Source: Marchantia polymorpha subsp. ruderalis (taxonomy: Eukaryota; Streptophyta; Marchantiopsida; Marchantiales; Marchantiaceae). From it: 64,000 bases of DNA. The notes under the pieces are model-generated. The model saw only the letters and a list, made by a program, of their open reading frames with translations. It was not told the origin of the DNA and searched no databases. The position numbers were made by a program, and so were the translations under genes. The DNA is taken from assembly GCA_037833965.1 (NCBI GenBank), contig AP031355.1, positions 23,771,501-23,835,500 of the forward strand, in the 5' to 3' direction. Positions 16,084 through 59,400 of this stretch are shown piece after piece; the first letter of the stretch is position 1; every line of letters begins with the position of its first letter.

Positions 16084-16112
<29 letters not shown>
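16084..16112. repeat. (TA)n microsatellite at the edge of the retroelement
   Basis: A pure TA dinucleotide run of about 29 bp directly precedes the partial LTR copy starting at 16116. It marks the outer boundary of the element on this side. Any target-site duplication here would be obscured by it. Confidence 0.9.
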
Positions 16113-16114
<2 letters not shown>

Positions 16115-16115
16115 C

Positions 16116-16229
16116 TGTCGTGCGAATACATATCGCCATACACTCTACATCGCTGACATGCTACTCACATACACATATGCACACATACACACATATAAGG
16201 CGCGAGAGAGTACACACTCAAATGTCACA
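16116..16229 (-). repeat. Partial extra LTR copy outside the 3' LTR
   Basis: This 114-bp block repeats the first 114 bp (in element orientation) of the neighbouring LTR. The pair differs at only two positions over about 118 bp. It begins TGTGACA on the minus strand, directly after the end of the full LTR with a 2-nt spacer, and stops at the TA run. The element's 3' side thus carries about 1.3 LTRs in direct orientation. Confidence 0.85.
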
Positions 16230-16231
16230 AC

Positions 16232-16640
16232 TGAAATAAAAGGGAGATTCCTCATTGGAATTCCCGTCGATCAATTACCCTACTGGCAACAAACCGTCAC
16301 CGTCACAAACATGAGTCAAGCCCAACCCACTCCACACTCAGAGAATCCAGGTCGACGCAAAGGGAAAAGTCGCTCTACGCTCCCAACGCTTTCAGGCTCG
16401 ACTCGAAGAACTAACGTTCTTCGAGCCGTCCCCGACTGTATACCCCTCGTGACCCGAACCCTATTTCCACGTATAAATATAGTAAGTGCCCAAACTGCGT
16501 GAGCCGACTCGTAACTACATGACAGCTGTCGTGTGAATACATATCGCCATACACTCTACATCGCTGACATGCTACTCACATACACATACGCACACATACA
16601 CACATATAAGGCGCGAGAGAGTACACACTCAAATGTCACA
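16232..16640 (-). repeat. 3' LTR, about 409 bp, TG...CA ends
   Basis: On the minus strand the LTR opens TGTGACA at 16640 and closes TTATTTCA at 16232, the usual TG...CA ends. A purine run, AGAGGGGCGAG, lies just upstream (16653-16643) as a polypurine tract. A TATA box, TATATTTATA, at 16481-16472 places the RNA start near 16450. The 37-nt segment at 16438-16402, complementary to the primer site, comes just after that point. The copy at the other end of the element matches 288 bp of this LTR. Confidence 0.85.
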
Positions 16641-16761
16641 ACTCGCCCCTCTAGCTGGTGGTCAGGTCCCTCTGACTCCTAGGTAGCCCTATCTACAACT
16701 ACATGCTATACACCTTCGTGGGTATGCGAACCAGTAGGCCGGGTGTTATGTCGCCCCATCG

Positions 16762-18368
16762 TTAGTCGCCTATCTGCAATTCATAACATGTGAAGATCAA
16801 GTCATCTAGCCCTTCTGAAGTACATTGAGGACAAACCCATCGTCCAGCCGGAATAACATCGATAGGCGGAGTCAGGCACGACATGTGCCATCCCCTAAAG
16901 CACCTATCACACACCAACATACGGGCCGCCTGACCAGCTGACCCACACAGCATGCATCTCAAGCCAGCACGTACTATCGCTAAGCTTGGGTCCATAGTGC
17001 CATCTACGTTTGGGAGGTGGCATGGCGCACAATTGCGCACATGATCCTTCCAAACAACGCCGTCACGACCCTCCAACCTGAGAGCTCCAAAAGGTAACAC
17101 CTCCCGCACTCGCAAGATTGAGCGTCCCTCCGTCACATCCAATGTCGTCGGTGCAGTCTGCTGTAGATAGACGTAGTCTCCCACATGGAATCTACGAATC
17201 GATGGTCGATAAACTCCTCCCCCAATGGTTGCATATCGCAACGTATCTCTATGTTGAGCAATCGCAATATTCTCAAACGCTGCAAGCATAACTCTCCGAA
17301 AGAGCTCTACACGCTGAGAACATACTCTCACCCACATATTCGGGTCATCAATGTTCACCACCTCGCTAGACTTACGACGAATCGATGTTGGCAAGTCTGG
17401 ATCTCGGCCGTACAATTGAAAAAAATTTGGTGAGAAGGAAGCCAAGGATGCTTGACGACTGAACCGGTATCCCATGGCCAACCACGGTAACTGGATATCC
17501 CAGTCCCCAAGATGACCTTTTTGCAGGCCATACTTGCGCAACGCCCTCTTCACCGTCTGTACAACACGTTCAGTCACATCATCCGCCTCTGGATGATCTC
17601 GCGACGTGGTCCGATGATCAATCAGTGCCTTGTCGCACAAGACCTGAAACTCACCCTGAAACTCCGTCCCATGATCGGTCAACACCTCAGCTGGTGCATC
17701 ATAGTGACTAAGCACTCTGTCAATGAAAGCATACGCTACTCCTTCACTTGCCTTGTCAGGTAATGCCACCAACTCAATCCACTTGGAGAAATGCTCCACC
17801 ATCACCAACACATACCGATGATGTCGTACAGTCAAAGGTAGTGGTCCAGCAAAGTCCAAACTTCAACGGTAACCCAACCCCATGATGGATAATGGATGTG
17901 ACACTAGTGTCTGGGCATTGAATGATGCACTCACCCGATCACAAACCATGTATCGTGATACCAACTGCTGTACCTGAGTATGCATACCACGCCACCAATA
18001 CTGACCAAGGAGTAAGCTATATGTATGCTTCACTTCAAAATGTCCCAACTCCTCATGAGCATGCCTCACAATGCGTGCTCTCTGAGCTGGATGTGGTACT
18101 ACTCGTACCCTACCGTCCTTCCAGACTCGGATCCCTCCAATCGGTATCTCTTCGCCCGTTGGAGAACACGATCTCGCTCCTTGGCATCCACTGTGCCTGG
18201 CATCATGCTGGTTCGTAGGAACTCCAACATCAATGCATCATCGTGAACATCACGCTGATCCACACCACCATCCTCAACCTCATGATCTGAATATCGACCA
18301 TTTACTTTCTGACTAGAATAAGATGTTAGATGATTCTCTCTGCTGGAGTTTCCACATAACCAACACAT
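16762..18368 (-). pseudogene. Retroelement integrase region with C-terminal PHD finger
   Basis: This is the integrase part of the gypsy fossil. An H2C2-type zinc-binding region (HEELGHFEVKHT, YWWRGM) lies at about 18070-17900. The catalytic core (MDFAGPLPL, then VLTDHGTEF, then TERVVQTVKRAL) lies at about 17859-17520. A basic C-terminal region follows. The last 70 residues form a PHD-type zinc finger at about 16960-16800: CMLCG, then MLVCDRC, then GWHMSC, then RWVCPQC. These give the C4-H-C3 ligand order of PHD fingers, which bind histone H3 tails. In chromoviruses a chromodomain holds this position. The PHD here probably plays a similar targeting role, which is inference. Confidence 0.93.
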
Positions 18369-18383
18369 GAAGGCAGATGCATG

Positions 18384-19906
18384 TCAACCAGGCACCATCT
18401 CCTTGTCAACCTCACCATGCCATCTAGCTCCAGTATCATCCTCCTGGCTAGTGCATGGATTTTGACTCAAACCATCGGCATTTAGGTTCGCAACTCCAGG
18501 TCTATGCACTACCTGAAAATCGTACTCCTGTAAGATCAGAGCCCACCGTGCAAGCTTCCCTGTGAGCTTGTCAAACTCCATCAACCACTTGAGCGGCTGA
18601 TGATCAGTGACAAGGATGAACTGTGTACCAAACAAGTAACACCTGAAGTGTGCCACAACCCACACTACTGCCAAGCACTCTCCCTCGTACGAACTATATC
18701 GCGACTCCGCTGCATTGTTCGAACGACTAGCGTACGCAACCACAAACTCCTTGCTCTCATCATCACGCTGCGTCAACACCGCTCCAAGTCCCAACATACT
18801 CCAATCAGTGTGCAACTGGTATGGACGACCTCTGATAGGTCTCCTCAAGATGGGAGCAGCCACCAACCTGGCCTTGAGCTCAACAAAAGCTCTCTTTTGC
18901 TCATCTCCCCATTGCCAGTCCTGATCTGACTTCAGCAACTGGTTCAAAGGTTTGGCTATAGCACTGAACCCCTTCACATACCTCCGGTAGTAGTTCGCCA
19001 AACCCATGAATGCACGAACTCTACTCATATCCGTGGGACGAGGTATGCGTGCAATAGCTTCCACCTTTGCTTGCTGAACTCCTAAATCACCTGGGTATAT
19101 CACATGACCCAAGTACTCAACCTTCTCCTGGAAGAACTTACACTTCCCAGGATGTAACCTCAAACCATGAGCCCTCAATCGCTCAAACATAATCTGTAAA
19201 TGTATCTGGTGTTGCTCCACAGTGTCACTAAACACCAAGATATCATCAATGTAACATCTGACAAAATCCAGCCCCGCCAGGATTTTGGGGCTGGATTTTG
19301 TCCATAACTCTCTGAAACTCAGCAGGTGCATTCTTCAACCCAAAGGGTAAGAATCGCCACTGACACAAACAATCCTTGCCGTGGGAGTTGACGCCCAAAA
19401 ACGTTATCTTGGTTTTGTCCTCCTCCCGAATTGGCAACTGATGGTATCCTGCCCGAAGATCCAAAGTACTGAAAATCCTCGCATGTCCCACCACATCGAA
19501 GATCTACTCAGGTGTAGGCATGGCATACTTATCGGACTTCTTCTGCCGATTGATAGGACGGTAGTCTCCACACATGCGCCACACATCTCCACATTGACGC
19601 ATACTCACCATGCGATAACTCCACTAATCCAGCCTCCAGTAGGTCCAACGTCCTACTCCGAATCAAATCTCTCTCCATCTCACTGTATCGATAAGGACGA
19701 CGGAAGATTCGCGTATCACTAACCAATTCTATCCGTATACCGAGTCCAATCAACGCACCCAACTCCTTCATACTGAAGGCAAAACAACTCCTATAGTCTC
19801 GTAGGAATTGTGTCAATCGTCGCCTTTCTCCTCTTGAGATCTGGGAACCAATCAATGGCTCCCATTCCTCCTCCATATACACACTAGAGGGAGGCGACAC
19901 TGTCAA
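18384..19906 (-). pseudogene. Retroelement reverse transcriptase and RNase H region
   Basis: RT motifs on the minus strand include FSTLDLRAGYHQLPI, FLPFGLKNAPAEFQRVMD and the catalytic box YIDDILVFSD (about 19240). VEYLGHVIYPG and FMGLANYYRRYVKGFS follow. RNase H follows directly, with LHTDWSMLGLGAVLTQRD, SRYSSYEGECLAVVW and LVTDHQPLKWLM giving the expected acidic residues. The region ends near 18384. These motifs are standard for Ty3/gypsy. It is part of the broken element and not an independent gene. Confidence 0.95.
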
Positions 19907-20149
19907 TGGTTGCTACTCTACACACTGCAAAGAAGGATTCTCTATACCCTCCTTCGTAGCCACCTCCACATGAGACTCCTCTCCAACTGCATGGGCTGCA
20001 ACTCTAGTAAGTCCTTTCGTCACGTCCCATAAACTTTAAGGATGACAAATATCTCGCATGTCGCCCCCAGCCATTGCCTCTACCGTCTCGGTAGGCAATG
20101 AGCTAACAAGTGGTGTACTAACCACCAAATCAACGCGCAAACGGCGTTG

Positions 20150-21435
20150 CTCCGCCAAACCCAAGCTCACAATTCACGTCAAGTAGTTCAAGTCCATAGC
20201 TTCACCCAAAACCTGACGACGCGAAGCCTCTGAAACTGTAGCAGCTGCGGTGACACCAGTCATAAATCCCATTGCACGCTCTCTCTCATCAGCGTTGGGC
20301 TCCACCGACTGATGTACTGTACTGTACTGTCCCACAGTAGTCCAAGTCCACCATTACGATATGCATGTGATGTCGGATAACTGACAAATGTAGGTAAAGC
20401 CATCCGAGGTTGACCTACGCGGTTCACCTTCGCCATATGTGTCATATCAGCAACTCTCACTATTTGAGAGTGTCGGAAAACATCCAAGATACAGTCAACG
20501 GTGAGTGTAGGATCACGCTGCACAGAATCATAGGCATGACGCAATATCTCACGTGGCAAAAGATTGGTCCACCATAAACGTGCACGATGAGCACGTGATC
20601 CAACCCTCGCAGCATCCAACAGTACTGCTGATCCAATCCATGCTCGGACTTGATGGACACTCGCCATCAACTGGGCCCGAATGTCACTCAACAATGGTAC
20701 GTTCTCCAGAATGTATGCTGGAGAACGTGTCTGGTGCACCTGAAGATGACGTAACACTCGCGTCATCTCCCAAAACATCCGAGATCTGGGATCATGCAAT
20801 CCGGTCCCATGTCCAGCGCGTGTGTGTCCCTGACATGGCCAGCCCGCAATCACCATATCAATATGGCCAACGTGGTCAAGGTCCGGCGCCCCCAGCAACG
20901 AAATGTCTGAAGGCAACGCCTTCTGGTATCCTCGAACAGCTGATTGCGGCAACAACAAAGGAAATCGCTGCATCAATTGTGCAACATGTCGTGAAGAAAC
21001 TCGACGTGCGGTCTCGTCCTTCTCCACATACAAGTATCTCCGTACGAGAATACCTGACTGCAACACTGCTGCCAAACCAGTGCTGATCCCACCTAAAAGA
21101 TCTAGCAAACAAACACCCTCTGGGGAATACTCCCATGCAATAGGTGTAGTAACTAATGGAGACAATGCGCTAGAACCACCAACTAGCCGATCAATTGAAG
21201 CTTTCTCTGGCTCTACTGGTAAAGAGGCTTCACTCCAAGACTTTTTCACCAACCTATCAGTCTCCAACTGTAGTGCCTGGCACGAACCCCATAGTGGATT
21301 ATCTAAGGGTGAAGTCACCGCCGCTGTGAAACTCATAACCTCCTCCACATCCTCGTAGACTGAGGTATCGTCGGCAGACATGTTCCTCTCCAACAAGTCA
21401 TCGGGCCAGGTAAGCATTCCCCTAAAAATCCGCAA
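20150..21435 (-). pseudogene. Retroelement-encoded DNMT3-like cytosine-5 DNA methyltransferase domain
   Basis: A 391-codon open segment (21435..20260) carries the ordered motifs of a C5 cytosine methyltransferase. Motif I is LLDLLGGISTG (residues about 110-120, AdoMet binding). Motif IV is DMVIAGWPCQG, with the catalytic Pro-Cys at about 200-201. Motif VI is YILENV (about 241-246). Motif VIII reads LLDAARVGSRAHRARLWW (about 272-289). The spacing and the AHRAR block resemble DNMT3/DRM enzymes more than DNMT1 or bacterial ones. Motif X-like sequence follows down to about 20150. It lies between protease and RT, so it is inside the element's pol region and not a host gene. DNMT-bearing gypsy elements were reported from charophyte algae and DNMT-bearing retrotransposons from dinoflagellates (de Mendoza and colleagues, 2018). 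Confidence 0.93.
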
Positions 21436-22300
21436 CAGATGCCAAGACCGTTGATGAAGATCTAGAAGGTCGATCCCGAGAAATACATCTCACTGGCAGC
21501 TCGCTCAGGCGTCCATCTCCGGACTGCCAACCAGGACGATATGCGGCAGTCTCCGTCCAATAGTCCATCCGAAAGCCCATCGGGTATAACACAACTCCAC
21601 CAACAAGCACATCATATGACTTTGCTGATGTAACCACAACACGAACTCCAAACTGCGAGCTATCATGAGGGTGATCATGCCTCAACTACACCGCTATGCT
21701 CTTGCTGGTCATAAAGTAAGACCTATCGCTGGCGCCACCAAGAGATGTCTGGATGTGGAATGGGCAAGGTTCAAACTCTGACCTCCGAATACCCAAACTA
21801 ATGCATGCAGCCTTGCCCAACATCAAGGGCTGTGCACCAGAATCCAACAAAACTCTGGCTGGGACATACACCTGTCCCGTAGAACTCACTAACCGAAATA
21901 GACCACTTCGGTTGTCCACCATACATACACCAGGAACAATACTCTCGCGATCAATGGCTGGGCGAGCTGGTAAGGACTCCATCCTCGCCGCTGCGGCCTG
22001 CCAAGTCTTCTCCTCGAACAATGTAGACGTTGAGGATGTGTCCTCAACCGTATCCTCACGTATCTCGGCACTCGTAGCAGCGACTCATTCACGTTCACAC
22101 GACGTGGCTGCTACCCGAAATACTAGAGCCAAATCAATACCAGAGTCTATCAACTCCGTGGCTGAAAACAATGGAGATCGCAAGACTGAAGTGGCCATCT
22201 GCATCACTGCACTAGATGGCACGTCTGCGTCCACAACAGATGATGTAAGAACCTCAGTTCTCACTCTAGTGTCACTAGGCGGTGCAGGTCTCATAGATGA
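21420..22300 (-). pseudogene. Retroelement leader and aspartic protease region
   Basis: Just inside the 5' LTR lie about 100-120 codons without a recognised domain. A retropepsin-like aspartic protease follows. RVLLDSGAQPLMLG, at about 21860-21825, holds the DSGA active-site signature preceded by VYVPARV. SYDVLVGGVVLYPMGF further on resembles the C-terminal half of gypsy proteases, followed by DYWTETAAYRPGW. No capsid or CCHC zinc knuckle is visible between LTR and protease. It belongs to the broken gypsy element. Confidence 0.8.
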
Positions 22301-22309
22301 ACTGCTACC

Positions 22310-22346
22310 CAGTCAAGGACGACTCGAAGAACGTTAGTTCTTCGAG
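22310..22346 (-). promoter_or_regulatory. Putative self-complementary primer-binding site of the gypsy element
   Basis: These 37 nt sit immediately inside the 5' LTR, where a tRNA primer-binding site normally lies. They do not resemble the complement of initiator tRNA-Met. They are the reverse complement of LTR positions 22517-22553 at 35 of 37 bases, and both differences would be G-U pairs in RNA. The LTR segment lies about 15-35 nt after the expected RNA start. This arrangement resembles the self-primed Tf1/sushi group. That it primes this family is inference. Confidence 0.7.
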
Positions 22347-22634
22347 TGAAATAAACGGGAGATTCCCCACTGGAATTCCCGTCGGTCAATTACCCTACTG
22401 GCAACAAACCGTCACCGTCACAAACATGAGTCAAGCCCAACCCACTCCACACTCGGAAAATCCAGGTCGACGCAAAGGGGAAAGTCGCTCTACGCTCCCA
22501 ACGCTTTCAGGCTCGACTCGAAGAACTAACGTTCTTCGAGCCGTCCCTGACTGTATACCCCTCGTGACCCGAACCCTATTTACATGTCTAAATATAGTAA
22601 GTGCCCAAACTGCGTGAGCCGACTCGTAACTACA
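22347..22634 (-). repeat. 5' LTR copy of the gypsy element (288 bp of homology)
   Basis: It aligns base for base with 16232-16519, with 11 differences in 288 bp. On the minus strand it contains the TATA-like tactatatttag (22599-22588) and ends TTATTTCA at 22347. Homology to the longer 3' LTR stops about 3 bp beyond 22634. There the sequence passes into a CT-rich 36-bp tandem repeat. Confidence 0.92.
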
Positions 22635-22640
22635 TGATAA

Positions 22641-22712
22641 ATCTCTCTCTTCTTCATTAGTTTTAGTCTTCGTAACATCTCTCTCTTCTTCATTAGTTTT
22701 AGTATTCGTAAC
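22641..22712. repeat. 36-bp tandem duplication next to the gypsy 5' LTR
   Basis: Two adjacent 36-bp units (22641-22676 and 22677-22712) begin atctctctcttcttcattag and differ at one base. They lie directly outside the 5' LTR copy, where its homology to the other LTR ends. They may be flanking host DNA or a product of rearrangement at the junction. Confidence 0.85.
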
Positions 22713-26176: not shown

Positions 26177-26249
26177 TCCGTTGTAGTCTAGTTGGTTAGG
26201 ATACTCGGCTCTCACCCGAGCGACCCGGGTTCAAGTCCCGGCAACGGAA
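26177..26249 (+). tRNA. tRNA-Glu (anticodon CTC)
   Basis: This is a 73-nt cloverleaf. The acceptor stem TCCGTTG (26177-26183) pairs with CAACGGA (26242-26248), and the discriminator is A. The D arm includes the A box TAGTCTAGTTGG. The anticodon stem CTCGG/CCGAG encloses loop CTCTCAC with anticodon CTC at 26211-26213, reading GAG. The T arm CCGGGTTCAAGTCCCGG contains the B box (about 26228-26238). No intron is present and CCA is not encoded, as expected in eukaryotes. A TTTT run at 26256-26259 serves as the RNA polymerase III terminator. It lies in the 3' flank of the MCA gene, on the opposite strand. Confidence 0.97.
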
Positions 26250-26627: not shown

Positions 26628-29595
26628 TCATAAAACTGAGGTGCATAGGAGGAGGAAGTCGAACAAGTCGTTACCTTCTTCCTCACAAGCTTGAATTTCA
26701 CGCCACTCTTGCACCAGCGAGCAGCAGCAGCACAAAATGTGCGCCCACATATCATCGCACGTTCCTCCCTGCATACATGTAGAGTGAAAACTCAATATTG
26801 TCGTTGCGTTGCCCACTGTGACATAGTTACGAAACACTGACTGAATCCTGACGGCATTCGCCAGCAAGATAATGGCTACATGTTGTTGACATCGCTAATA
26901 CTACAACTTTGGCTCCCAAAACATACCATTTCATATCATACATAGAACCAAAGATTCATACATAATGCACTCAGGTTTCTCTTTCCATTTTTCAAGTTCT
27001 AATAGTTTCGAAGTTCTGATGTATTACTTCGCATCGAGATGGCTAATCTCAAAGCGTGAAGGTAAGTATGCCTCAAACGAATCAACCTTCAAAATCCTCC
27101 TTCTTAAATAACAATACACGGCCTTCTTGCAGACAATAAAACCGAGAGAAAGAGCGAGAGCAGTACAGGTATATTGAAGCGCTTCCGCAGTTTCCGTCTG
27201 AAGCAGCAGGTGTACAAGCAGCAGCCTAGATAAAGCGTATGAAAGGCTAGATCATGGCAAGCAGTCTCTTGGGCTGTTGACAAGCACGACAGGAGGTCAG
27301 ATTCTGACAAATAAAGATTTTCGCCAGTGAGGAAGATAATGTTCAACGTCCTAAACATGAGAATTCGCTTATTAAAGACGTACAGTAGCTCGAGCATAAA
27401 CTTCGATTAAAAGTGAATGGTTCAGAGACGAAAATGTATATCAGATTGGCAGAAGTGTCATGCGCTTGTACAACTGTCAGGTTCGACAAATCAATTGCTC
27501 ATGTCTTTGTCCGTACACTCAATAAACAGATTCCGCAATCGAGTGAAGTGTTTTGGGCTTACAGATCTCTCCGTCAGTGACAACAGCAGCGATATTTGTG
27601 AACGTGCCACAAGGATAAAGAAATGTAGATATGCCTGTACCATGAAAACAAAAGTCAAACTTCACCATGAAATAATGATATCAGAAAAAAAACTGAGCCT
27701 TTGCGTATGTAGACCGCTGACTATCCATCTGTAAAGTCGCCTAGAGCTCGTACTAAGCACCTGGAAGCCTCCATTCTCACTACATTTCTCAGAGGAGAGA
27801 AGGCTAGGAATTCAGATGGATTTAACCCCAAAACAACGAAACTGCCCTGTCTATTTGATGATCATTAGAGCAGTCATGCCTGAAAAAAAACAAAAAAAAA
27901 AAAACGTAATAACAGAAACGTTGAGATGAGACAGGCGATAATCAAGGACACAGCCAGATATAGAAGCCATAGAGATCAGCAATGATTCAGAACCGTACAT
28001 AGAAAGGGGTCGAACCAGCAATCATAAAGTGAATTGTGCCACTGTCTGGGCAGTCTAGACCTGTCAAACCTTCGAGCCCCATTGTTATTTTCACTAGTCT
28101 CCACCGCTCTAGTTTCGACAGCATCCGACAAGGGCAATTGGGCCACCTGCGAGCTGGTAACCTCGTTCCGTACAACGGGTGAAGGTGGTTTCCGATGTGG
28201 AGGAGGATGAGGAGGTCTGGTTCTTCTGTGTCTGCACAGAAAACTCGACTAAGTCATTCTAATCTCTACTCTGAAGAAAACAATAGGTATTAGACGAACT
28301 GCTCTTTTCGCTGAGGAGAAGGGTTCATCGCAGGTGAGAAAAATCAAGAACTTTTGGGAAGTTCTGCTGTACAATGTCCTTGATCTGGATGCTGAAAAAA
28401 AATTTAATTACAAGATTCCAACAAAATCAATGAATCTGTCTGCTCTCAATATCAGGAAACGTACGCAGGGTCTGGTAGTTCCGAATTGTTCACATGGGCA
28501 TGAATTGCATGATGTCCATGATTTGCATGAGCATGGTTGGACACATGTGGAACAATGGCGGTGTTGGGATCTATGTGCTCGAGGTTATCATTTCCTGACG
28601 GTTGATCTTCGGTCGGAATGACGCTCACTTCCTCCGTAATTTCAATAAGATGCTCTATGACATCACACTGATCCAACTCCATTCTTGCTTGCATCTGCTG
28701 CAGCTCAAGACGCAGCTTCTCGTTCTCTTCTCGGAGAGCTCTTTCTAAGCCCAAACCCGGATAACTCCTAGACAGAGACCTCTGTAAGATAGCAGAATCT
28801 GCTATCGTCCTGTCATCTTTCAGAAGAGTCGTGTATATTGTCTTTTCCTCGTCATCCATCGTGTACTCACGCCGATCCTTCTCAATAGCTCGCAGTTTTT
28901 CCTGAAACCCGCTCGACATTCAAGTATCAGACCCCGTGTACTAGGCTTCCCATGAGCACAGCGAGCTCTCCTGCTACGGTACCCATATCGCTGCTACACG
29001 CCCGAGCATGCGGACCAGCATTGGTAATGCTGCACCAGAGCAGTCACCAATGCACTGTCGGGCCGAACAGATGAAAAGCATTCACAGACATACAGCATGG
29101 AAGTGAATGTGGTCGATCTCTGATCTGAGACAGCTGAGTATCACAAGACTGCACAAATGGAGGAGAGGAGTGGGAGAGAATGAGGGTACTTACTCGATGA
29201 TTTTCCACCAGACTGATGAGAGGAATGAGTCGCAGATATCTGTCAATCTCATACTGATAGTCCTTGAACTGATTAACGATGTGCCAACCCATGGCAATCA
29301 AGTACAAGTAGCTCTTATCTCGGCAGTTCTCAACCAAAGTCAAGGCCCTCTTCAAGCAGCGCTCGAGGTGGTCCAGGGGCTCCCGCGTGTCCCTGTACTC
29401 CGGATACTCGTCCACATCCTGAGGTTTCAGCTGCTCCAGCAAGTTCGCAATGAGCTTCAAATGCTGCGCGAACTGGCGACAGTTCCGCTTGTGCATTCGA
29501 GCATTGCTGGCAGCTGCCACTATGGAGTATATGAGCTTCAAAGAAGCCGAGATCTGAACAACATTGGCTATCTCTCCGATCACCACCCATTCCAT
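26628..29595 (-). CDS. MCA: MCA (MID1-complementing activity) mechanosensitive Ca2+ channel protein, six exons
   Basis: MCA proteins are plant-specific plasma-membrane proteins that let calcium in on membrane stretch. Exons on the minus strand: 29595..29194, 28901..28465, 28231..27999, 27634..27563, 27273..27167, 26768..26628 (stop). Every GT-AG junction keeps phase, giving about 463 residues; Arabidopsis MCA1/2 have about 420. Exon 1 holds the N-terminal block (GEIANV, MHKRNCRQFAQHLKLIANLL, CRDKSYLYLIAMGW). Exon 2 holds the ARPK/EF-hand-like part (EKDRREYTMDDEE) and a coiled coil (LREENEKLRLELQQMQ). It ends in a His-rich insert (about residues 253-270). Exons 3-6 encode the Cys-rich PLAC8 domain (LYDCWFDPFLC, FLYPCGTFTNIA, GCCLYTCCFRRKLRKRFNI, HILCCCCSLVQEWREIQ). 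A GTAACG donor at 26674 could lead to another last exon. Confidence 0.93.
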
Positions 29596-31000
29596 GACTA
29601 CGACTGGCTCAACTGATGAAACTGAGCAACTCCAAACTTAACCTGCGCTTCCCTTCACCAATAATGCTCGGCTCAACTCCGCATCGATGAAAACGTCTAT
29701 ACTAAATAAGGCCACCCGAACTATCATTATCTAGGCTGCTGTGAACGAAGCAATTGGCCTGATCCCGAACGCAAGTCCTCTCCCTCTCCCCGGCGCTCGG
29801 ACGACGAAGTTGGCACAAAGGAGCGTCATGCACAAGCAAGTCAGTCAGTACGCACGACGGACTCTCAAAAGGGACGCAAGCTATCTCCCGAGGCATTGTG
29901 TGGCAGCACATCATAATCGAAGCCCGCAGGCTTAGAGCCGGAGTCAGATTGCAGCTCAAGGCACTGGCACCTCCGGGCGGCTCGATTCTCGTCCCAGCAG
30001 GCCATCATCCCAGCGCGTCGTCGTCGTCGTCGTCGTCGGTCCAAGAAAGTGTCTCTCCGCCACCCAAAAACACCTCGCCGCACTGTCAGTCCCTTCGACC
30101 CACCAAGGCCCCTTTCACGCCCCCACTCGGCCGCACCTCCATGAACGCTCCTCGCCCTCGACCATGAAATTGCCTCCCCTCCCCTCCCCTCCCGGAGCTC
30201 AATCACTCGCCCTCGTTCCTCGACGAGACGCAGCGAGTCCCCGCACCAAAATCTGAGCCGAGCCGCAATGCAGCGCAATGCAATGCAACGCAATGCCGGA
30301 GGGAGATGGTCAGACGCGCCAACAACGGGCGACAACAGCTCGCGCTGCCACCGACGCTCGAATTACTACGACCGCTGCATTGCCTGCGTCACATGGCAAT
30401 CCGGTTCGACCCCCGACCCCGGAACGGAACGGAACGCCTCGGTCCCGCAGTCCACCTCGTCCCTTAACTCTCTCGCTCTCCTCTCCTCTCTCTCTCGTCG
30501 ACGAGAGCCCCGTCGTCCCCTGCCTCGTCCCCTGTCCCAATCCCGGCGCTCACTCACTCCACGAAAACTGGACCGAACGGCGATGGGCGGCGGCAGCTGC
30601 CGGCGTGGGGCCACGACGACCGGAATCTGTAGCTTCGAGATTACGAGCAGAGGAAGAAGAAGAAGAAGAAGAAGAAGCGGCTGGTGCTGGCGGGAGCTTT
30701 GGAGCTGGGGCCCACGGCGGCACCTTTCGTTATTTCCAGCGACGTCGAGCGAGCGAGCGAGCTCACTCACGAGCTCCGTCGCGATTCTCGTGAGATTTCT
30801 CGACCTCAGGCTGCTCTCGCTGCCTGTCCCCGTGATCGATCCACTGTCCGCCTTTTCCGTCTTTTCGTCGACGAATCCACTCCCTCCCTTCTCCCCGGGA
30901 TTCGACTCGGACGGAGGCGGAGGCGGGCGACCCTTTGGCGGCGCTCGTTGGCTCTAGCTTTATCCTCCTTCCGATTTAGCGGAGAGTAAACGGACCGTAC
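29596..31000. promoter_or_regulatory. GC-rich upstream/leader region of the MCA gene
   Basis: This block rises to high GC content directly upstream of the MCA start codon. It carries TCG trinucleotide repeats near 30018-30040 and a GAA run near 30652-30677. Long overlapping open frames on both strands have low-complexity Arg/Ser/Pro-rich translations without domains, as expected of GC-rich non-coding DNA. It resembles the GC-rich block upstream of the ABA4-like gene, so I read it as promoter plus 5' untranslated sequence. Confidence 0.45.
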
Positions 31001-43762: not shown

Positions 43763-46700
43763 TCATGGGTGTTTAGAGGCCCTACTAGGGTCACCGGTTT
43801 GTTCTTTAGATTTCGAAGGAGAGTAACCCCCTTTAGCTTGAGCACGAGTTACACTCGACAAACCTGAAAGTATACTATCTAATGCTGAAGTTGTATTTGC
43901 TGGAGGAGACCTGCCAACGTTGCTGGCAGAATTAGCTTTTGAACACGGAGCTGAAGACGAATGCGACGTTGGATAGGCCTGGGGAACACCGTTAGAAGAA
44001 CCGGATTTTGAAGCTCTTTGAGCTCTCTGGAATTGCTCCCATTCAACAGCCCTCTCTGCGGCGGTGAGCTGACCAGCTCGATCTTCATTACCTGACATAA
44101 GAGGAGAGGGCTGAGCTGATGATGAAGACTGCCTTTTAGAAGGCGGCAACGAACCCGAGGACATGATGGCCGACGCCTCTTCTCGCTGTCTCTTCCGTGC
44201 AGCAAGCATGTCTTCTCTGCTCGTACGCCTGTCTTGAGAAACACTCCTTTGGTCAGACCGCCTACTCTGGAAATCTGCTTGTTGCTGCATAGGACGCTGA
44301 GCGTCTACTGCAGCTCGAGTATCACCCGTTCTCCTTTCTCTGGCAAACTCACTAGAAATGACCCCGTCTTCTACCCGCTTCTCTTCTCCGCGATTGGTCA
44401 CTACACTGTCCGGCCTACATCTGTCTCCCCGGCTGTCCTCTGAACTTCTTCTGTGCATATCATTGCGACGATCTTTGTGTCTGTCTACACCCACCTCTGG
44501 CATCTTTCCACTCTTAGACTGACTAAGGTCAGACTTAGACTTCTCCATGTACTTCTGAGCTTGACGCAATCTCTCCTGTGTCTTTTCATCCAATGAAGCT
44601 TGAGAGTTTGTAGACTTTCGCCTCTCATAATCAGCTCTAGCCTTCGCATCATCTGCTCTAATTCTTCCCTGTGACTTCTCACCAATCGGACCGTGGGCGC
44701 CTTGTCTAGACTTGCGCATCTCATAATCAGCTCTCGCCTTCTCGTCATCCACTCTGCTTCTTTCGCGTGACTTCCCATCCATCGAAGCTTGGCCTAGACT
44801 AGATTTCCGTTTCTGATGGTCAGCTCTAGACTTCTCCTCATCTGTTCTACTTCTATCACTGGGTCCACGTGAGGCCACTAAAACCTTGCCAGCCTCACTG
44901 CTCGTAGATTCTCCAGGGTACTTCCTGTCGTTCAGAAACCTCCCTTGCGGGTTATCGGCTACTGGTGTAGGAGAGTGCTCCAAAACTAGTTTTCTACGGT
45001 CCAAACCCGATCTTGCCTCGGTGCTGATGACTTTCTTGGCTGGACGTACTTCACTGGCATCACCACCGTGTCTTTGTGAGGGCTCTGATGTCCCATGGCC
45101 GACCGTCTGTCCCTCCACTCTTACTAGATGTCTTTTCCTTTCTTCTCTTGCTCTGTCCTCCTGCCCTCCGTTCAGCCTCTCTTCCTTTGGAGACTTGAGC
45201 TCTCCCTTAACACTACGGCTATCAGAGTCTCTTGAATTTACCTCCCTAATCTCGCCAGCAGCTCCACGAGGTTGTAGCTGCCGACTGTTTCCATCCAAAG
45301 GATGCTTCTCGGAAATTCCTGACTTCAGGAGTTCCTTGCTTCGAACATCAGGTTTCCCACCCCTCACTTCTATTCTGTCTACAGAGGGTTGCTTTCCACC
45401 ATCCTCGACGGATCCCGACAACAAGGTGGAAACGGCTGGGGGTCTCGTTTCGGGCTCCGAAAAACTTTTCTCAGAATCCTCCCGCCTCCTATTATTAACT
45501 GGGCGAAATTCCCTTGTACCATGGGTACTTGCCCTCCTTCCAGAGGTTTCTTCATCTGCTAACCTCTTGGCACTTTCTGGCTTAAGATTATCTGGAACAG
45601 GTACTGGAGGAGAACCTTTCTTTTGAAAGAAAGATGAATATGGTTTCTGAATGGGGAAGAAAAGAGCCCTCTTCTTGGCATTTCTCAACAATGCGTCCCA
45701 CGATGCATTTGCTTGCAGAGTGGCGGCGTTCCCCACAACCCAACAAGAAAAACGAGCCCTCGTGAGAGCAACATTCATACGTCGAACATCAGCTACAAAC
45801 CCGATCCCTCCCGACTTTTGGTTCGAATTAGGCGATGCACGCACAGTGGATAAGATAATAATATCCACCTCTCTACCCTGAAACCCATCGACGGTATTGA
45901 ACTCCACATCTGCAGCTGCTTTGGAACCCACCGTTCTTGTAAATTGCTCCTGAAGCAATCTGAGTTGTTGCTTGTAGGGGGTGATGACACCAACCCGCCC
46001 TTCCCAAAGTTCAGCCGAGTATCTCTTCTTCAGTGTCAGGTACAGTTGCAGAACAACTTCCACTTCGGCCTCGTTGCTGATAGACTGGGAAGCAGAGTTA
46101 CCCCTTCCACCTTCCTTACCGTCTACCACATCGAAAAATACATAGGGTCCGAGATACGACTCTCTGTGGAAAATTGCTTTCCTACTTCCCTTCAGACCTG
46201 GCCCATCTGTGATCAGGTTATTATAGAAATGAGCTGAAGGAAACTCACGGATCTCTGGATGCATTCGATACTGTGTACTGAGCATGGTCACAGGATAGCC
46301 AGCCCGCTGTAACCGCTCAAACATACTACGCTCGTATGCCATCTTGCTGACATTTTGAGACAAAACTGTGGCAGGCAACTGCTTCGGATCTCCAACCATT
46401 ACACACCTAGCATTGACTTGTGTAAGCAGTTGAAAAGGGATGAGAGTGGCAGGCTCTAGTGCCTGACCTGCTTCATCAATAACTACTGCATCAAAGAAAC
46501 ACTCCTGCGCAGGCTTGTGTTTCTTTGCCCCGACTATGGACTCCATACAGACTGTGTAAATGTCTCCTCCACACCCACTCAGCGTGGTCACGACAACATC
46601 CGCTTGTCTGATGATCTGCTTCCTGATGGCTTTCCGTTTGTTCTGAGACTCCTCCCATGATTTCCTACCTTCTTTCTCTGCCGTGGCTAGCTCTGCTGAG

Positions 46701-49700
46701 ATCTCCCTACGCTGCTTGTACAGCAGGTTCAGCTTCCCTGTGGTCGCTGATGGACCTTGGGCGACGATCTTGGCAGCCTTGCTTGCTAGGTCGGACTCCA
46801 AATTGACAGGCTTCTGTCCTGTCTTTTCGTTCTCTTCGAAGCCTTTGGCCTGAGACAGCAACGCTTCCAGCACTTGAATGAACTCAATAATGTCCTCAAG
46901 CTTTGCTCTTGATTCCATCAACTTCGCTTGCGCTTTCTCCTCAGCTGCATCTTCGTCGTCGTCTTTTTCAGCTCCGAGTCTCTGATTGACGAGCGTGTCG
47001 ATGAAAACTGGCAGCGAGTTCGGGTGCACCGACTTCACAGCCCCTATCCTAACAATAGACGGTCTGAAGAATGCTCCATTTGCTCCATACAGACCATTCT
47101 TCAATATTCTGGCGACAATCTCGTCTACGGCAGCATTGGACTGGGCGCAAACAAGAACTCTCTGTTTGGGACCGTCTCCAAACCCGGAATCACTGTCCTT
47201 CATCATCTGTTTAGCTATAGCGGCATCCTGCCATGACTTGCTTATTGCAAAGGAAGTCCTGGCTGCAGCGCTCATATTAGTCGATCGACCAGTGGGGACG
47301 TGAGAGTTCTCCTTCCCTGTTCTCGGGTTTCGCCGTGGAGATTTGACCGCAAGTAGGGCACTGATCACCGCCACGATGGTCCTGGTCTTCCCGGTTCCCG
47401 GGGGACCCTGCACCAGGGTGAGCTGATGAGTATTTGTCATGGTTTCCTTCCCACCAATGGCGAATGCAATTGCACGAATCTGGCTCTCGTTGTACTCCGC
47501 TGTGATTTTCTCCTGCAGTGCTTCTGGCAAACCACGCAAGTCAAGTGATGGCTTACTGTGCTCTGTGCTCTTCGCTTCTTGGGCAGGGATGGAAGTGTCG
47601 GGAGTGAGCAGAATAGGCAACAGTGGGAGACAAGGAACTGAAGACAGCGCTTGGCATTCTCGAAGTTGTGGAGACATGTTCATCACTTTGGTGAGATGCC
47701 ACTTACTGCGGTCCACCAGCAGGCGTTTGGCTTTTGTGAGACGAGGATCACTCATGTTAATGTAAATCTTCATCAGAAGAATCGTGGCTCGACTCTTGCT
47801 CTCTCGTTCCCTGCTTTCAACTTTGGCTAGCAAGTGACAAGTCTGCTGTCCGACACTCATAGGTTGCCGGCTAAGCAAAATCAGATCGTTCTCTGCACAC
47901 GATCTTGGTGCAGCATCGGAACCTGCTTCGGCCATGAAGCGACCGAGGTTAAAATCATCCACTCTCTCCAAGGACATTAATCTCACGACACCAGTTGTCG
48001 TGCTATCAGACAAGTTCAGCTCCTCATAAGAGCGCTGTAATTGGGCCTTGAACTCATCCATTAGTAATGGTCGGAAGATTTCCATGTATTGCTCTGAAGA
48101 CTTGAAAGTCAAGGGCACTTTCTCAAGTCGTTCTCCAAAGTTGGCTAGATCATCATCGTCCACTCCCACTAAAGATAAGTAATTTAGAGAGAGAATTCTC
48201 CTGTACCAGTCATCCATTCGAGGAATAACACGAGGTTTTATGACCAGTTCCGGTGTCTTCACCACATTCCCTACTCCTTTTCCACCTTCACCGGGTAATT
48301 CCAGCCGAACCAACTGCCGTCTTGGTTTAGAAATCATGTCTTTCAGTCCAGTGGTCTTTCTGACATTTTCCAGGGCCTGATCCAGAGGATCTACATCGTT
48401 GCCAATGACGAGCTGCCTCAAGATTGCGTCTGAAGACTTGGTTTTCAAGTCCGGATCGGCGGCTTTGGTAGATGCTTGCTCCACTGCCGGCGTTGGAACT
48501 TTCAGATCTTTCTTAACACTAGTGGCAGCTTCGGAAGCAGCTAATCTCTTGGCCCTTTCTTCTCTTTCAACTCTTTCTCTCACTTGCATTCGCACGACAT
48601 CTTCGACCCCAGCTCGCTGTTCGAGGCCTGTCCGATGCTCCGCCCTGAGTGAAGACAGTTTGCCTGCAGGCTTTTGAGGCTTGGCATTGTATTTCTTATA
48701 GCCAGGTGGTTTAAAAGGGGTGGACTTGCCCGAGGGCTGGATCACTCCTCCCTTGCTTGCTTGTCCGAGCAGCTGATCAATTCGAGCCTTTGTGAGGAAA
48801 TTGTCAAGAGTGGAGGAGGGTCTATGCCGAATTGAAGGTCGCTTAAACAGCGATTCCTCGTCCCTGTTTGTAGAACTGGTCGTTGTATCCAACCCAGCAT
48901 CGGCCTTGTAGTCACCCAAGGATTCTCCAGGTTGAGTCGACGCACCAGCTGCATTACTTGATATCGACATCTCTGAAAGCGATAAGGATGCTGAACCGTA
49001 GTTATCTTCATCCTCTGTGAGATCGATGATATCCCTGTATCCCTCTTGTTGCCTTACAGGTATACTACCGTCCTTCAGGAATCTCGAAGGTAGGGCCTGT
49101 GTGCTTGTAATCGACGGCCAGCTCAGCTGCCCGTTGGTGTCACTTGACTGAACCTTTGGAAGTCTCCGAGGTAGATTATCCAGAAATCCTTGACTCTCAA
49201 GTGTAGTTGATAAAGACTGCAGAAGTGTACCCAGCTGAAGTTTGCAACTCTCTCCCAGTGAGAATCCTGGCTTCCGAAACTCCACAATCACATCCTCCAC
49301 GATAGAAGAAGACACAAGTTGAGTTTTCCGCAGATCCTCGAGGATGGACACAACGGCCTCTTTCCACCACCTCTGTATGATGGCTGATGCAAGATCCCCC
49401 CATCTGACAAGAGCTTGAAACCATGTCAAATCACTGCTCTCTTCGGCAGACGAGCACTGCTTCAGGCTAGGAACTGTAAATACTCGTTTCTTGTGAGCAG
49501 GATCTAGATGGCGACAGACCAATGGTAAGAGTTGCAACATTCTCGTGAAAGTCATCAACTGACCTGCACCATCAACGTACTGTCTTCCCTCAAATAAGGT
49601 CTTTTCCAACAAGGGCCATATATGGCTCGCAACAACTCTGCAGAGACGACTCCAAACTTCCTCGTCTCTCCGTATCTTATGGGTTGCAGGTATTATCTCG

Positions 49701-52108: not shown

Positions 52109-52186
52109 CTTCTCGACTCACTGCCCCTTAGGGCCCAGCGGTCTAAGGGTCACATGCCAGGTCCCATGCCAGGCCAAACTCCCCTT

Positions 52187-57307: not shown

Positions 57308-58681
57308 CTAGAGCTGCATGTCCAATCTCGGCTCGAGCATGAAAAGTTTCCGACCGGCAGAAAGCGCCGGCAGCGTCTGACAGGTTCCGGACGAGAGATT
57401 GCAGACGAAATACTCACTGCGGCGGACGAGCTCGACGGAGACGCAGGCGAAGTCCTGGCCGAAGTCGCCCTTGAGATTCCAGCAGGCTTTGGCGATGTCG
57501 CCCAGGAAGGACATGACGGGGATCCAGCGGCAGTCGGCCGAATCGTACTCCCAGAGGCGGATGGAGAAGTCGTACTGGTTCATGTCGAAGCTCTGGCCCA
57601 GGAGCACGAGGCGGCCCTGGCGCTCGTACACCGAAGGCTTGTAGACATTGAGCACGGGGATGTCGGCCAATCGAGAGGGGAAGAGCGAGCCGGCGTCGGG
57701 GCAGAAGCGCCAGGCGCTGAAGAGCGAGTCGGAGTGGCAGGTGACGAAGAAGAGCGCGTCGCGGACGATGGTGGCGTCGTAGACGAAGCCGACGTCGACG
57801 AGCTGCTGCGACGCGCCCTCGCCGACGGTCATGGTACGGCCGAGGTGGAACTGGAACTGCGACCAGGCGTCGCGCCCGACGTCGTAGGCGTCGAGCGTCC
57901 ACACGTCGCAGCGCTCGTGCTTGGCGCACTTCTCGAACCAGGGCCCGAGCAGGACCTGGAAGGCGTCGCGCGGCCGGTTGTCGACGAGCTTCTTGACCTT
58001 GGCCCAGAACAGCGCGGGGCCTTTCTCCTTGAGGTGCAGCGGCAGATTGAGCAGGCGGTGCGACTGCGTGAACGGGTTCACCAGGTAGATGATCTCGCTC
58101 TTCTGCTTGGACGGGCAGGCCGGGCAGGTGGCGCGCCCGCGGTGCTCCGAGCTGCGGCAGCGCTCGGTGCCCAGCGAGGGCTTGGGCTGCTGCCGCCGGA
58201 AGAAGATCATGAACACGCCGCCCTTGACTGCGACCACGCGCACGAACCGAGTGCATGTGCTCCCCAGCCCGCCATGCAGGAACATATTGAACCACGTCCG
58301 CGGGAAGATGCTCCAGCGGTCGCCCTGCGGGCTGAAGAACTGGAAGTCGCAGTCGGAGCAGAACTTGCCCTCGAGCATGCACTTGTGCGCGCCGGGGCGC
58401 AGGTAGAGCGTCAGGTCCGATTCGGGGAACGCCGACGAGAGGAAGAGCGGGACGCCGCTCGAGGGCGAGCTCAGGCGCAGGAAATTCGCGTCGCGCAGGA
58501 TCGCGCTCCACCGCCTGCACACGGCGCGCAGGCGGAATTTGTCCTGCCACGGCAGCCGCGCCAGCACCAGCATCAGCAGCTCCTCCGGCAGCTGCTTGAC
58601 GAGGGGCGGCTCCATGGCGCTGCAATCCTTGTGCTGCAATCCTGCGGGCGAATTCGCGAGGGCGAGACTTCGCGATGGCAT
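57308..58681 (-). CDS. F-box protein with kelch-like C-terminal region
   Basis: F-box proteins are the substrate receptors of SCF ubiquitin ligases; the F-box binds SKP1. The single-exon frame has 457 codons with an F-box at residues about 28-68 (VKQLPEELLMLVLARLPW, FRLRAVCRRWSAIL, FLRL). The rest has spaced aromatic and Gly positions such as LDAYDVGRDAWSQFQ and IRLWEYDSADCRWIPV, typical of plant kelch-type F-box proteins. Two short Cys clusters (CSDCDF and CPACPSKQ) are noteworthy. Met1 and Met23 (MEPPLVKQ) are both possible starts; Met23 lies close to the F-box, as in many homologs. Codons are extremely GC-rich at third positions, unlike the helicase and MCA genes. As a result long frames also stay open in two other readings of the same DNA. 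The substrate is unknown. Confidence 0.9.
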   Translation of the reverse strand: MPSRSLALANSPAGLQHKDCSAMEPPLVKQLPEELLMLVLARLPWQDKFRLRAVCRRWSAILRDANFLRLSSPSSGVPLFLSSAFPESDLTLYLRPGAHKCMLEGKFCSDCDFQFFSPQGDRWSIFPRTWFNMFLHGGLGSTCTRFVRVVAVKGGVFMIFFRRQQPKPSLGTERCRSSEHRGRATCPACPSKQKSEIIYLVNPFTQSHRLLNLPLHLKEKGPALFWAKVKKLVDNRPRDAFQVLLGPWFEKCAKHERCDVWTLDAYDVGRDAWSQFQFHLGRTMTVGEGASQQLVDVGFVYDATIVRDALFFVTCHSDSLFSAWRFCPDAGSLFPSRLADIPVLNVYKPSVYERQGRLVLLGQSFDMNQYDFSIRLWEYDSADCRWIPVMSFLGDIAKACWNLKGDFGQDFACVSVELVRRSEYFVCNLSSGTCQTLPALSAGRKLFMLEPRLDMQL

Positions 58682-59400
58682 CGCTCGCCTCGTCGTCGTC
58701 CTCGAACGCTTGCGCAGCAGCCTCTATCAGTCGGCAAGGGAAGGGAATGGAATGGAATGGAAGAAAGTCAGCGCGCCCGCCCTGTCTCCTCTCGCCTCGC
58801 CTCGTCTCGTCTCGTCTTCTCCCGCAAAATCTCCTCGAGATCTCAGAAAGCTGCTGCTGCTGCTGTAGGCAGATAGATCTCTGCTTGTTCTGCTGCTCTC
58901 GGTCGCAGTTGACTTGTGGGTTTTTCAACTGGTCGAGGCCGCCATCTCTGGATGCACTGCACTGGCACTCCGCAAGCTCTACAGGCTGCAAACGCGTTTA
59001 CTTGCTGCTGCCTCCACAGTGGCGAATTGTGCTCTGCTCATGAGGCTCCGCAGCAGCACCCCCTTTGACTCTTCTACCCCCGCCCGTCACCTGAGAAGCC
59101 GGAAACTGTTATGGCGACTGCGCCTGCTCAGCCTCTTCTCCCTCATCCCGGAGCCCACAGTCAAGATTCCGTCGACCAACGCTACAGGCGAAGCAGCTCT
59201 CGCTCCTACCGCCATCCCTCCCCTCTCCTCCCCTGCCTCCGTTTCCTTTTCCTTCTCCCTCTCCTTCTAATGCTTGATCGCAAATACCTTCCGTGCCACC
59301 AAATTCTCCGTGCCACGAATTCTCCTACAGCGATCGGTGCGGAAGTGCCCCGATCTCTTTATAGACTCCCCCTCCCCTGCCTTGCCTGGCCTGGACTGGC
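58682..59400. promoter_or_regulatory. GC-rich 5' region of the F-box gene and divergent TATA-bearing promoter
   Basis: Immediately upstream of the F-box start lie a CTG run (58853-58866), GGAAT repeats near 58740 and many TCTCG units, typical of an untranslated leader. A TATA-like ctctttatagac at about 59356 faces the plus strand and suggests a divergent transcript starting near 59385, whose product I cannot identify. Confidence 0.35.

Follow-up and report, generated by a model that had tools for sequence, protein, structure and literature searches.

The minus strand of the 64,000-nucleotide stretch of Marchantia polymorpha subsp. ruderalis DNA analysed here (contig AP031355.1; the whole stretch is called the window) carries at 16116-22639 a decayed Ty3/gypsy-type retroelement with a 4-bp duplication at both sides. 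The pieces follow one another along the element in the order protease (PR), DNMT3-type cytosine methyltransferase (DNMT), reverse transcriptase (RT), RNase H (RH), integrase (INT) and PHD finger. The assignment to Ty3/gypsy was based on the domain order PR-RT-RNase H-INT together with gypsy-type Pfam domains, the PR being weak by Pfam. A previous sequence-only reading of this DNA had proposed a Gypsy retroelement with a built-in DNMT3-like methyltransferase, and the gypsy-type pol domains found by Pfam bear out the first part of that proposal. The PHD finger, the leaky-stop context, the split repeats and the leaders described below are features beyond that reading. In the 5' to 3' direction of the element, the parts and their flanks were as follows (ORF, open reading frame).

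22640..22643, no strand: target-site duplication GATT, 5' side of the element (flank sequence)
16116..22639, minus: whole element, a decayed gag-deleted copy with split direct repeats; edges placed by eye from the flanking sequence
22347..22639, minus: terminal repeat A1; 11 differences in 291 from A2, no B on the outer side
22336..22346, minus: CTCGAAGAACT, an 11-nt candidate priming site with its complement in the inner part of A; self-priming predicted
22310..22347, minus: inverted 38-nt copy of the inner part of A, where the leader/gag deletion has its breakpoint
21419..22312, minus: gag C-terminal remnant and protease (LLDSGA), with stops and one frameshift; Pfam RVP_2 at E 0.054 only
20260..21489, minus: DNMT3-type cytosine methyltransferase ORF, motifs I-VIII (PF00145 4.7e-10; DNMT3A 4.6e-7)
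20123..20323, minus: C-terminal stretch of the DNMT, carrying motif X and frame-shifted
19913..19915, minus: stop TAG of ORF1, then in-frame CAA CCA; a leaky stop predicted from sequence context
18384..19912, minus: fragmented reverse transcriptase and RNase H (RVT_1 6e-15; RT_RNaseH 3.1e-36)
17863..18132, minus: integrase zinc-binding domain (PF17921 3.2e-13)
16762..17859, minus: integrase core and C-terminal part with a CAPCHLP motif, then the PHD finger (rve 4.5e-11)
16822..16956, minus: PHD finger closing the integrase frame (PF00628 3.8e-10)
16527..16643, minus: repeat B1, a 118-nt repeat; 2 differences from B2
16232..16524, minus: terminal repeat A2, with GC between it and B1
16116..16232, minus: repeat B2, 3' end of the element (repeat comparison)
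16112..16115, no strand: target-site duplication GATT, 3' side of the element (flank sequence)

The window copy is dead, its frames being broken at several points. The region 22312-21419, which holds the protease-like piece directly upstream of the DNMT, was 77-78% identical to the Marchantia proteins P0088 and P0089. Homology to ORF1 resumes only at 22312, corresponding to residue 491 of P0088, and gag is absent up to about residue 490, so that the leader and most of gag must have been lost from this copy. The 11 differences between A1 and A2 indicate that the insertion is old.

Identity of the methyltransferase

A profile scan of 20260-21435 gave a PF00145 match at 4.7e-10 (39.9 bits, cut-off 22); the segment scored as DNMT3. 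The ORF also matched DNMT3A (4.6e-7), and DNMT3 structures were the nearest both by sequence and by fold, the fold being judged from a model of the relative P0004 (mean pLDDT, the model's own confidence score, 61). The four motifs that the sequence-only reading had placed in one open segment, I (LLDLLGG), IV (AGWPCQ, the Pro-Cys motif), VI (ILENV) and VIII (SRAHRAR), were all recovered in one frame of 20260-21489, with the protease-like piece upstream and RT, RNase H and INT downstream on the same strand; that reading had likewise put the segment between protease and RT. Motif I is one residue away from the DLFGG of the family. Motifs I, IV, VI, VIII and X, the last frame-shifted in the window copy, stand in their natural order; DRM, the rearranged plant DNMT3, was excluded by this order from I to X, which is not circularly permuted. 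By sequence comparison and fold model, the enzyme encoded in the window is therefore classed as a DNMT3-type C5 methyltransferase.

Copies in the host genome and selection

The host genome (241.5 Mb, 9 contigs) contained at least 107 matches to the DNMT frame, a lower bound as 106 of 860 candidates were scored; the methyltransferase is a trait of the family. An open frame of at least 1355 aa with no stop was present in 23 of the 107 rows. Twenty of the 107 places were examined in detail, picked for an open ORF1, a choice that biases both the frame counts and the ratios of nonsynonymous to synonymous substitution (dN/dS) given here. In these copies ORF1 encoded gag-PR-DNMT (1355-1365 aa) and closed with TAG CAA CCA in 19 of 20 and with TAG CAA CAA in one, and in 16 of the 20 the same frame continued for another 1042-1045 aa as ORF2 (RT-RNase H-INT-PHD). 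P0088 and P0089 terminate at the position of the TAG CAA CCA of the window. Since the ORF1 that carries the DNMT closes at a conserved UAG, the DNMT and Gag lie on the same side of it. The sequence CAR-YYA after UAG constitutes a leaky stop of the tobacco-mosaic-virus type.

The dN/dS of the DNMT, calculated from non-independent pairs, was 0.209 for the 91 pairs inside subfamily 1, 0.166 for the 15 pairs inside subfamily 2 and 0.132 for the 84 pairs across the two subfamilies (dS 0.26). The between-subfamily values elsewhere were 0.084 for RT-RH, 0.077 for INT, 0.149 for PR, 0.226 for gag and 0.203 for PHD. By these ratios, the DNMT is evolving under purifying selection in the host (dN/dS 0.13-0.21).

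Relatives, PHD finger and domain orders

The searches for relatives required shared 5-residue words, and the hosts named here do not imply absence from other plants. M. polymorpha proteins accounted for 22 of 86 hits in one search, which also named Sphagnum (4), Calypogeia fissa (3) and Riccia sorocarpa (1), and for 15 of 32 hits in a search with the DNMT only, which named Sphagnum fallax once. With liverworts and Sphagnum as the nearest named relatives, the phenomenon reaches land plants, an extension that the sequence-only reading had thought possible. The C-terminus of INT plus the PHD finger, used as the only query, gave 108 hits, 84 of them also with a DNMT, and the hosts included Volvox reticuliferus, Pleodorina starrii, Tetrabaena socialis (2), Chlamydomonas eustigma and Klebsormidium nitens. 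Nine of the 32 DNMT-only hits included an integrase and six of these had the PHD finger; those without it were P0095, which has a scrap of INT, P0111 and P0116. Among 95 RT proteins of at least 900 aa, a set gathered by DNMT or PHD searches so that the shares are biased, 79 had a DNMT, 87 a PHD finger and 72 both. Thirteen of the 16 without a DNMT start near the RT (two-ORF type) and could not have shown one; the other three are P0194, P0224 and P0227. Scans of viral contigs with the DNMT ORF, a post-type DNMT alignment and a PHD alignment, and one scan of genome contigs, found no relatives.

Two domain orders were observed in the proteins with both domains placed, RT-RH-DNMT in 66 and DNMT-RT in 10, and Pfam confirmed both orders in those scanned; three of the 10 come from Marchantia gene models, which may have been drawn across the stop. 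In the first, post-type, order the DNMT lies between RNase H and INT and in the second, pre-type, order it is ahead of the RT. Many post-type polyproteins (including P0136, P0145, P0147, P0210 and P0211) extend about 300-400 residues beyond the PHD finger, and five list PF01585.

The eight zinc ligands of the PHD finger (C4HC3) were invariant in all eight aligned relatives, as was the integrase CAPCH. The nearest solved structures include CHD4, MLL3/4, KDM5A/B, DPF2/3, PHF21A and ATXR5; several such fingers read histone H3 without K4 methylation. Classification as a chromovirus was excluded, as Pfam up to E 1 gave a PHD finger behind the integrase and no chromodomain.

History of the methyltransferase

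The catalytic Cys was kept in 146 of 154 rows and the Glu in 142 of 151, across deep divergence. All trees were quick trees. The pre-RT rows fell on one side of a branch with support 88 when the DNMT tree included all 107 rows, and 27 pre rows stood together with support 99.9 once 11 long or divergent rows had been removed. The free INT tree placed the pre and two-ORF rows in a set of 24 (support 96) that included the long post-type row P0119; holding the 23 pre/two-ORF INT rows together without P0119 gave a likelihood better by 50.8 (p-AU, from the approximately unbiased test, 0.938). The DNMT3 of the host and human DNMT3A served as root for a further tree. In it, a single branch (length 2.4, support 99) set apart the 60 retroelement DNMTs sampled, with pre (92) and post (91) as sister clades. 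For this tree, 13 long or divergent rows were dropped and the others halved, the cellular side consisted of only two DNMT3s, the DNMT3A fragment filled half of the columns and the host DNMT3 exons were chosen by eye.

The host DNMT3, located with the DNMT3A fragment, grouped with human DNMT3A (41% identity). It sits across the branch of 2.4, which rules out the host gene as the source of a recent capture, and since it is so far from the retroelement DNMTs, the capture must be old. The DNMT and INT distances were correlated (r 0.67, 67 rows), and the identity between pre and post DNMTs averaged 27%. The simplest reading of these sequences is one old capture, with a later move within the polyprotein. 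The family may also have spread horizontally.

Repeats, ends and integration

With the window repeats as queries, B1-A2-B2 was present in 11 of the 20 copies and partial or missing in L010, L013, L019, L023 and L024, while in the second-subfamily copies L017, L018, L026 and L027, B1 and B2 flank a diverged A. A1 was found at the 5' end in 8 of 12 copies inspected (the 5' piece of L028 begins within A1) and not in the other four 5' pieces (L034-L037), which were short. There was no B outside A1 in any of the seven copies with the outer side visible, and none of the 12 5' pieces holds a B. The repeats are thus arranged in the split-direct-repeat order A1 - ORFs - B1 - A2 - B2. Ordinary long terminal repeats were ruled out by the seven copies lacking B outside A1; the window copy alone, having lost its leader and gag, leaves the point undecided. 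At the A2/B1 junction, the 10 nt GACAGCTGTC form a perfect palindrome.

The element ends are TGTCATG and CGCACGACA (TG..CA). The 4-bp target duplications were exact in six of seven other copies with both ends read, and off by one base in L021. In the window, GATT is present at both ends provided that the first TG of the element, which now reads TA, has mutated. Because of the TG..CA ends and the 4-bp target duplications, the DDE integrase looks responsible for insertion. Integration by a tyrosine recombinase was ruled out by these duplications and the rve integrase, the leaders having been left out of any search with tyrosine-recombinase profiles. The 11-nt site CTCGAAGAACT, complementary to the inside of A, directly follows A1 in seven of eight other copies and is absent only from L017, a member of the second subfamily; a Tf1-like self-priming site is predicted here. 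A 36-nt tandem duplication at 22641-22712 abuts the 5' end of the window element on the outside.

Leaders with copied genome fragments

The distance from A1 to the ORF1 open frame was about 2.7-3.8 kb in five copies, and the outer parts of these leaders were unrelated except for 239 nt common to one pair. The final 700 nt or so were collinear in many copies and different in others. All four leaders searched (L030, L032, L029 and L031, the 5' leaders of copies L014, L022, L009 and L017) contained blocks 97-100% identical to other places in the genome as well as blocks of lower identity. Some of the matching places were sister copies or repeats, and the whole L009 leader recurs twice. The L014 leader has five in-line blocks from one locus on contig C7, 97.5-100% identical, from which four intervening stretches are gone; three of these have CT..AC borders, as introns of an antisense-lying gene, and one gap has neither a GT-AG nor a CT-AC border. 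The single gap in the L022 leader has GT..AG borders, that in L009 has neither type of border, and the L017 block is contiguous. One frame in the L014 leader is an AAA ATPase by Pfam, and one in that of L017 had no Pfam match. The capture spot is fixed and adjoins the putative priming site. In two of the four leaders searched, canonical introns are gone, which points to the capture of spliced RNA from the host; by this evidence the retroelement would be one that takes up spliced host transcripts.

Other features of the window

Elsewhere the window contains an unbroken frame of 2784 aa for a SEN1-type helicase (43763-52117), an MCAfunc-domain frame (29044-29637), an F-box frame (57308-58723) and a tRNA-Glu (26177-26249).

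Proposed function and alternatives

The interpretation that we favour is that the window holds a dead copy of a large gypsy-type family encoding a DNMT3-type methyltransferase and a PHD finger, in which the DNMT marks the element's own complementary DNA (cDNA) and the PHD finger steers insertion; taken as a whole, its chances of being right are about even. Ribosomes would mostly stop at the UAG, and because of this the DNMT would be made at Gag-like amounts and packaged. The packaged enzyme could then methylate newly made double-stranded cDNA, by analogy with SymbioDIRS-Dnmt3 in yeast in the CG context. The integrase PHD finger may read histone H3, probably without K4 methylation, given its likeness to the CHD4, KDM5 and PHF21A fingers, and could steer insertion towards such chromatin. 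With methylated cDNA and PHD-guided insertion, a copy would arrive premarked like host heterochromatin, which would reduce harm and help the family to persist. Self-methylation, which the sequence-only reading had raised as a way for the element to tune its silencing, is inferred here as well.

A broader version is put forward more tentatively, with rather less than even confidence: an ancient green-plant gypsy lineage with a writer (the DNMT3-type enzyme) and a reader (PHD) that predate the split of the domain orders, with split repeats, DDE integration and self-priming, with Gag-level DNMT behind a leaky UAG methylating its own cDNA, with repeated uptake of spliced transcripts, and with a volvocine writer that is catalytically dead and DNMT3L-like.

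Several observations weigh against the favoured interpretation, 1) the CpG observed/expected ratio of the element is 0.80 compared with 0.86 for the window, without a clear footprint, 2) the motif IV Pro, adjacent to the catalytic Cys, is replaced by Glu in 49 of 155 rows, an unusual substitution mostly of the post-RH order, 3) KnitGypsy-Dnmt3, the related element of Klebsormidium nitens, gave no methylation in yeast, a result its authors called inconclusive as human DNMT3B failed too (PMC5890265), 4) the relatives P0194, P0224 and K. nitens P0227 lack a DNMT, the last having an integrase that groups with the clade with DNMT before RT (DNMT loss, or a gene-model artefact), 5) constraint on the PHD finger was not demonstrable within the subfamilies (dN/dS 0.46 and undefined, 49 codons), 6) the copies behind the dN/dS values and frame counts were picked for an open ORF1 and 7) in one integrase clade all seven rows (P0138, P0146 from Volvox, P0148 from Pleodorina, P0150, P0169, P0170 and P0195 from Tetrabaena) lack both the catalytic Cys and the ENV Glu. 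This volvocine-containing clade lost both residues, and catalysis is hence not always needed; Chlamydomonas eustigma P0192 has both.

The DNMT might instead serve mainly as a structural or DNA-binding component in assembly or reverse transcription, with methylation secondary. DNMT3L serves DNMT3A in such a capacity. The seven rows without Cys and Glu nevertheless keep much of the DAA..SxAHR..W segment, and the motif IV replacements and the inconclusive inactivity of the KnitGypsy enzyme in yeast (PMC5890265) lean the same way. However, Cys and Glu are otherwise retained over deep divergence, the DNMT is under purifying selection in the host and the SymbioDIRS-Dnmt3 enzymes methylate CG in yeast (PMC5890265), so that a primarily structural role is regarded as unlikely, if still deserving attention. 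Another conceivable role is that of a decoy or counter-measure, with the enzyme working in trans, on the genome of the host or on RNA, instead of on the element's own cDNA. More than 100 genomic copies could produce a diffuse activity, and host-wide effects and RNA methylation were discussed by de Mendoza et al. (PMC5890265). In both domain orders, however, the DNMT shares a polyprotein with gag-PR or pol, so that a site of action within the particle is favoured and action in trans is improbable.

As regards origin, the two domain orders could represent separate captures of related DNMT3s, given the different position of the DNMT, the low average identity between the types and the extreme divergence of the pre-type DNMTs of P0172/P0196 and P0222/P0223, which were excluded from the reduced and rooted trees. 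The sister relationship of pre and post beyond a single well-supported branch, the like split of the integrases and the correlated DNMT and INT distances speak against this, and two captures seem unlikely, though a quite reasonable minority view. That this copy alone acquired a fragment of a host DNMT gene has next to nothing in its favour. Family leaders do carry copied genome fragments; the proposal was ruled out by the at least 107 matches, the 23 long intact frames and the distance of the host DNMT3, and the DNMT is conserved in other bryophytes.

Comparison with known systems

Methyltransferase-bearing retroelements were known before from dinoflagellates and one charophyte alga, as the sequence-only reading had stated and PMC5890265 confirms, and the liverwort family brings them to land plants. 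Retroelement DNMT3s of streptophytes and dinoflagellates are also cited in PMC12344493. As the family is present in high copy number with intact frames and a selected enzyme, the question of why transposons methylate DNA becomes testable in a tractable land plant, and the linked PHD finger, the two DNMT positions and the dead volvocine versions provide natural contrasts for the roles of writer and reader.

No further description of DNMT/PHD gypsy elements in bryophytes or green algae was found, judged by titles and abstract openings, with most subscription journals outside the scope. The term PHD does not occur in the main text of PMC6317226, PMC2864245 or PMC3350952, and in that of PMC5890265, the terms PHD, Marchantia, Volvox and Chlamydomonas do not occur.

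In repeat order, A1 - ORFs - B1 - A2 - B2, the liverwort family resembles the PAT, Ngaro and DIRS elements. These rely on a tyrosine recombinase and do not duplicate the target, whereas the liverwort family has an rve integrase and target duplications. The Tf1/sushi-type elements self-prime, and the liverwort family resembles them in the 11-nt site that follows the 5' repeat and has its complement within that repeat, although the coding content is different and priming here is predicted.

A chromatin reader fused behind the gypsy integrase is likewise found in chromoviruses and in the Tudor-bearing Gypsy-10 of Ectocarpus (PMC12477816), but the liverwort family has a PHD finger as its reader, and a DNMT in addition. 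A Ginger1 DNA transposon has a PHD finger behind a gypsy-like integrase (PMC2836005). The dinoflagellate SymbioDIRS-Dnmt3 and SymbioLINE-Dnmt share the retroelement-borne DNMT, and SymbioDIRS also the DIRS-type repeat order (PMC5890265); they belong to other retroelement classes, in contrast to the liverwort family with its DDE integrase and 4-bp target duplications.

The closest counterpart by published description is KnitGypsy-Dnmt3, a Gypsy element with a Dnmt3-type, non-rearranged DNMT in the Pol ORF that is under purifying selection, and with repeats described as following the DIRS arrangement (de Mendoza et al. 2018, PMC5890265, and its Fig. 4 legend). The liverwort family shares the DNMT3 within the Gypsy coding region, the purifying selection and the DIRS-like repeat order. 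According to PMC5890265, the K. nitens lineage acquired its DNMT independently; the liverwort family differs from KnitGypsy-Dnmt3 in its occurrence in land plants and chlorophytes, its PHD finger, its two domain orders, its leaky-stop context, its target duplications and its fragment-bearing leaders.
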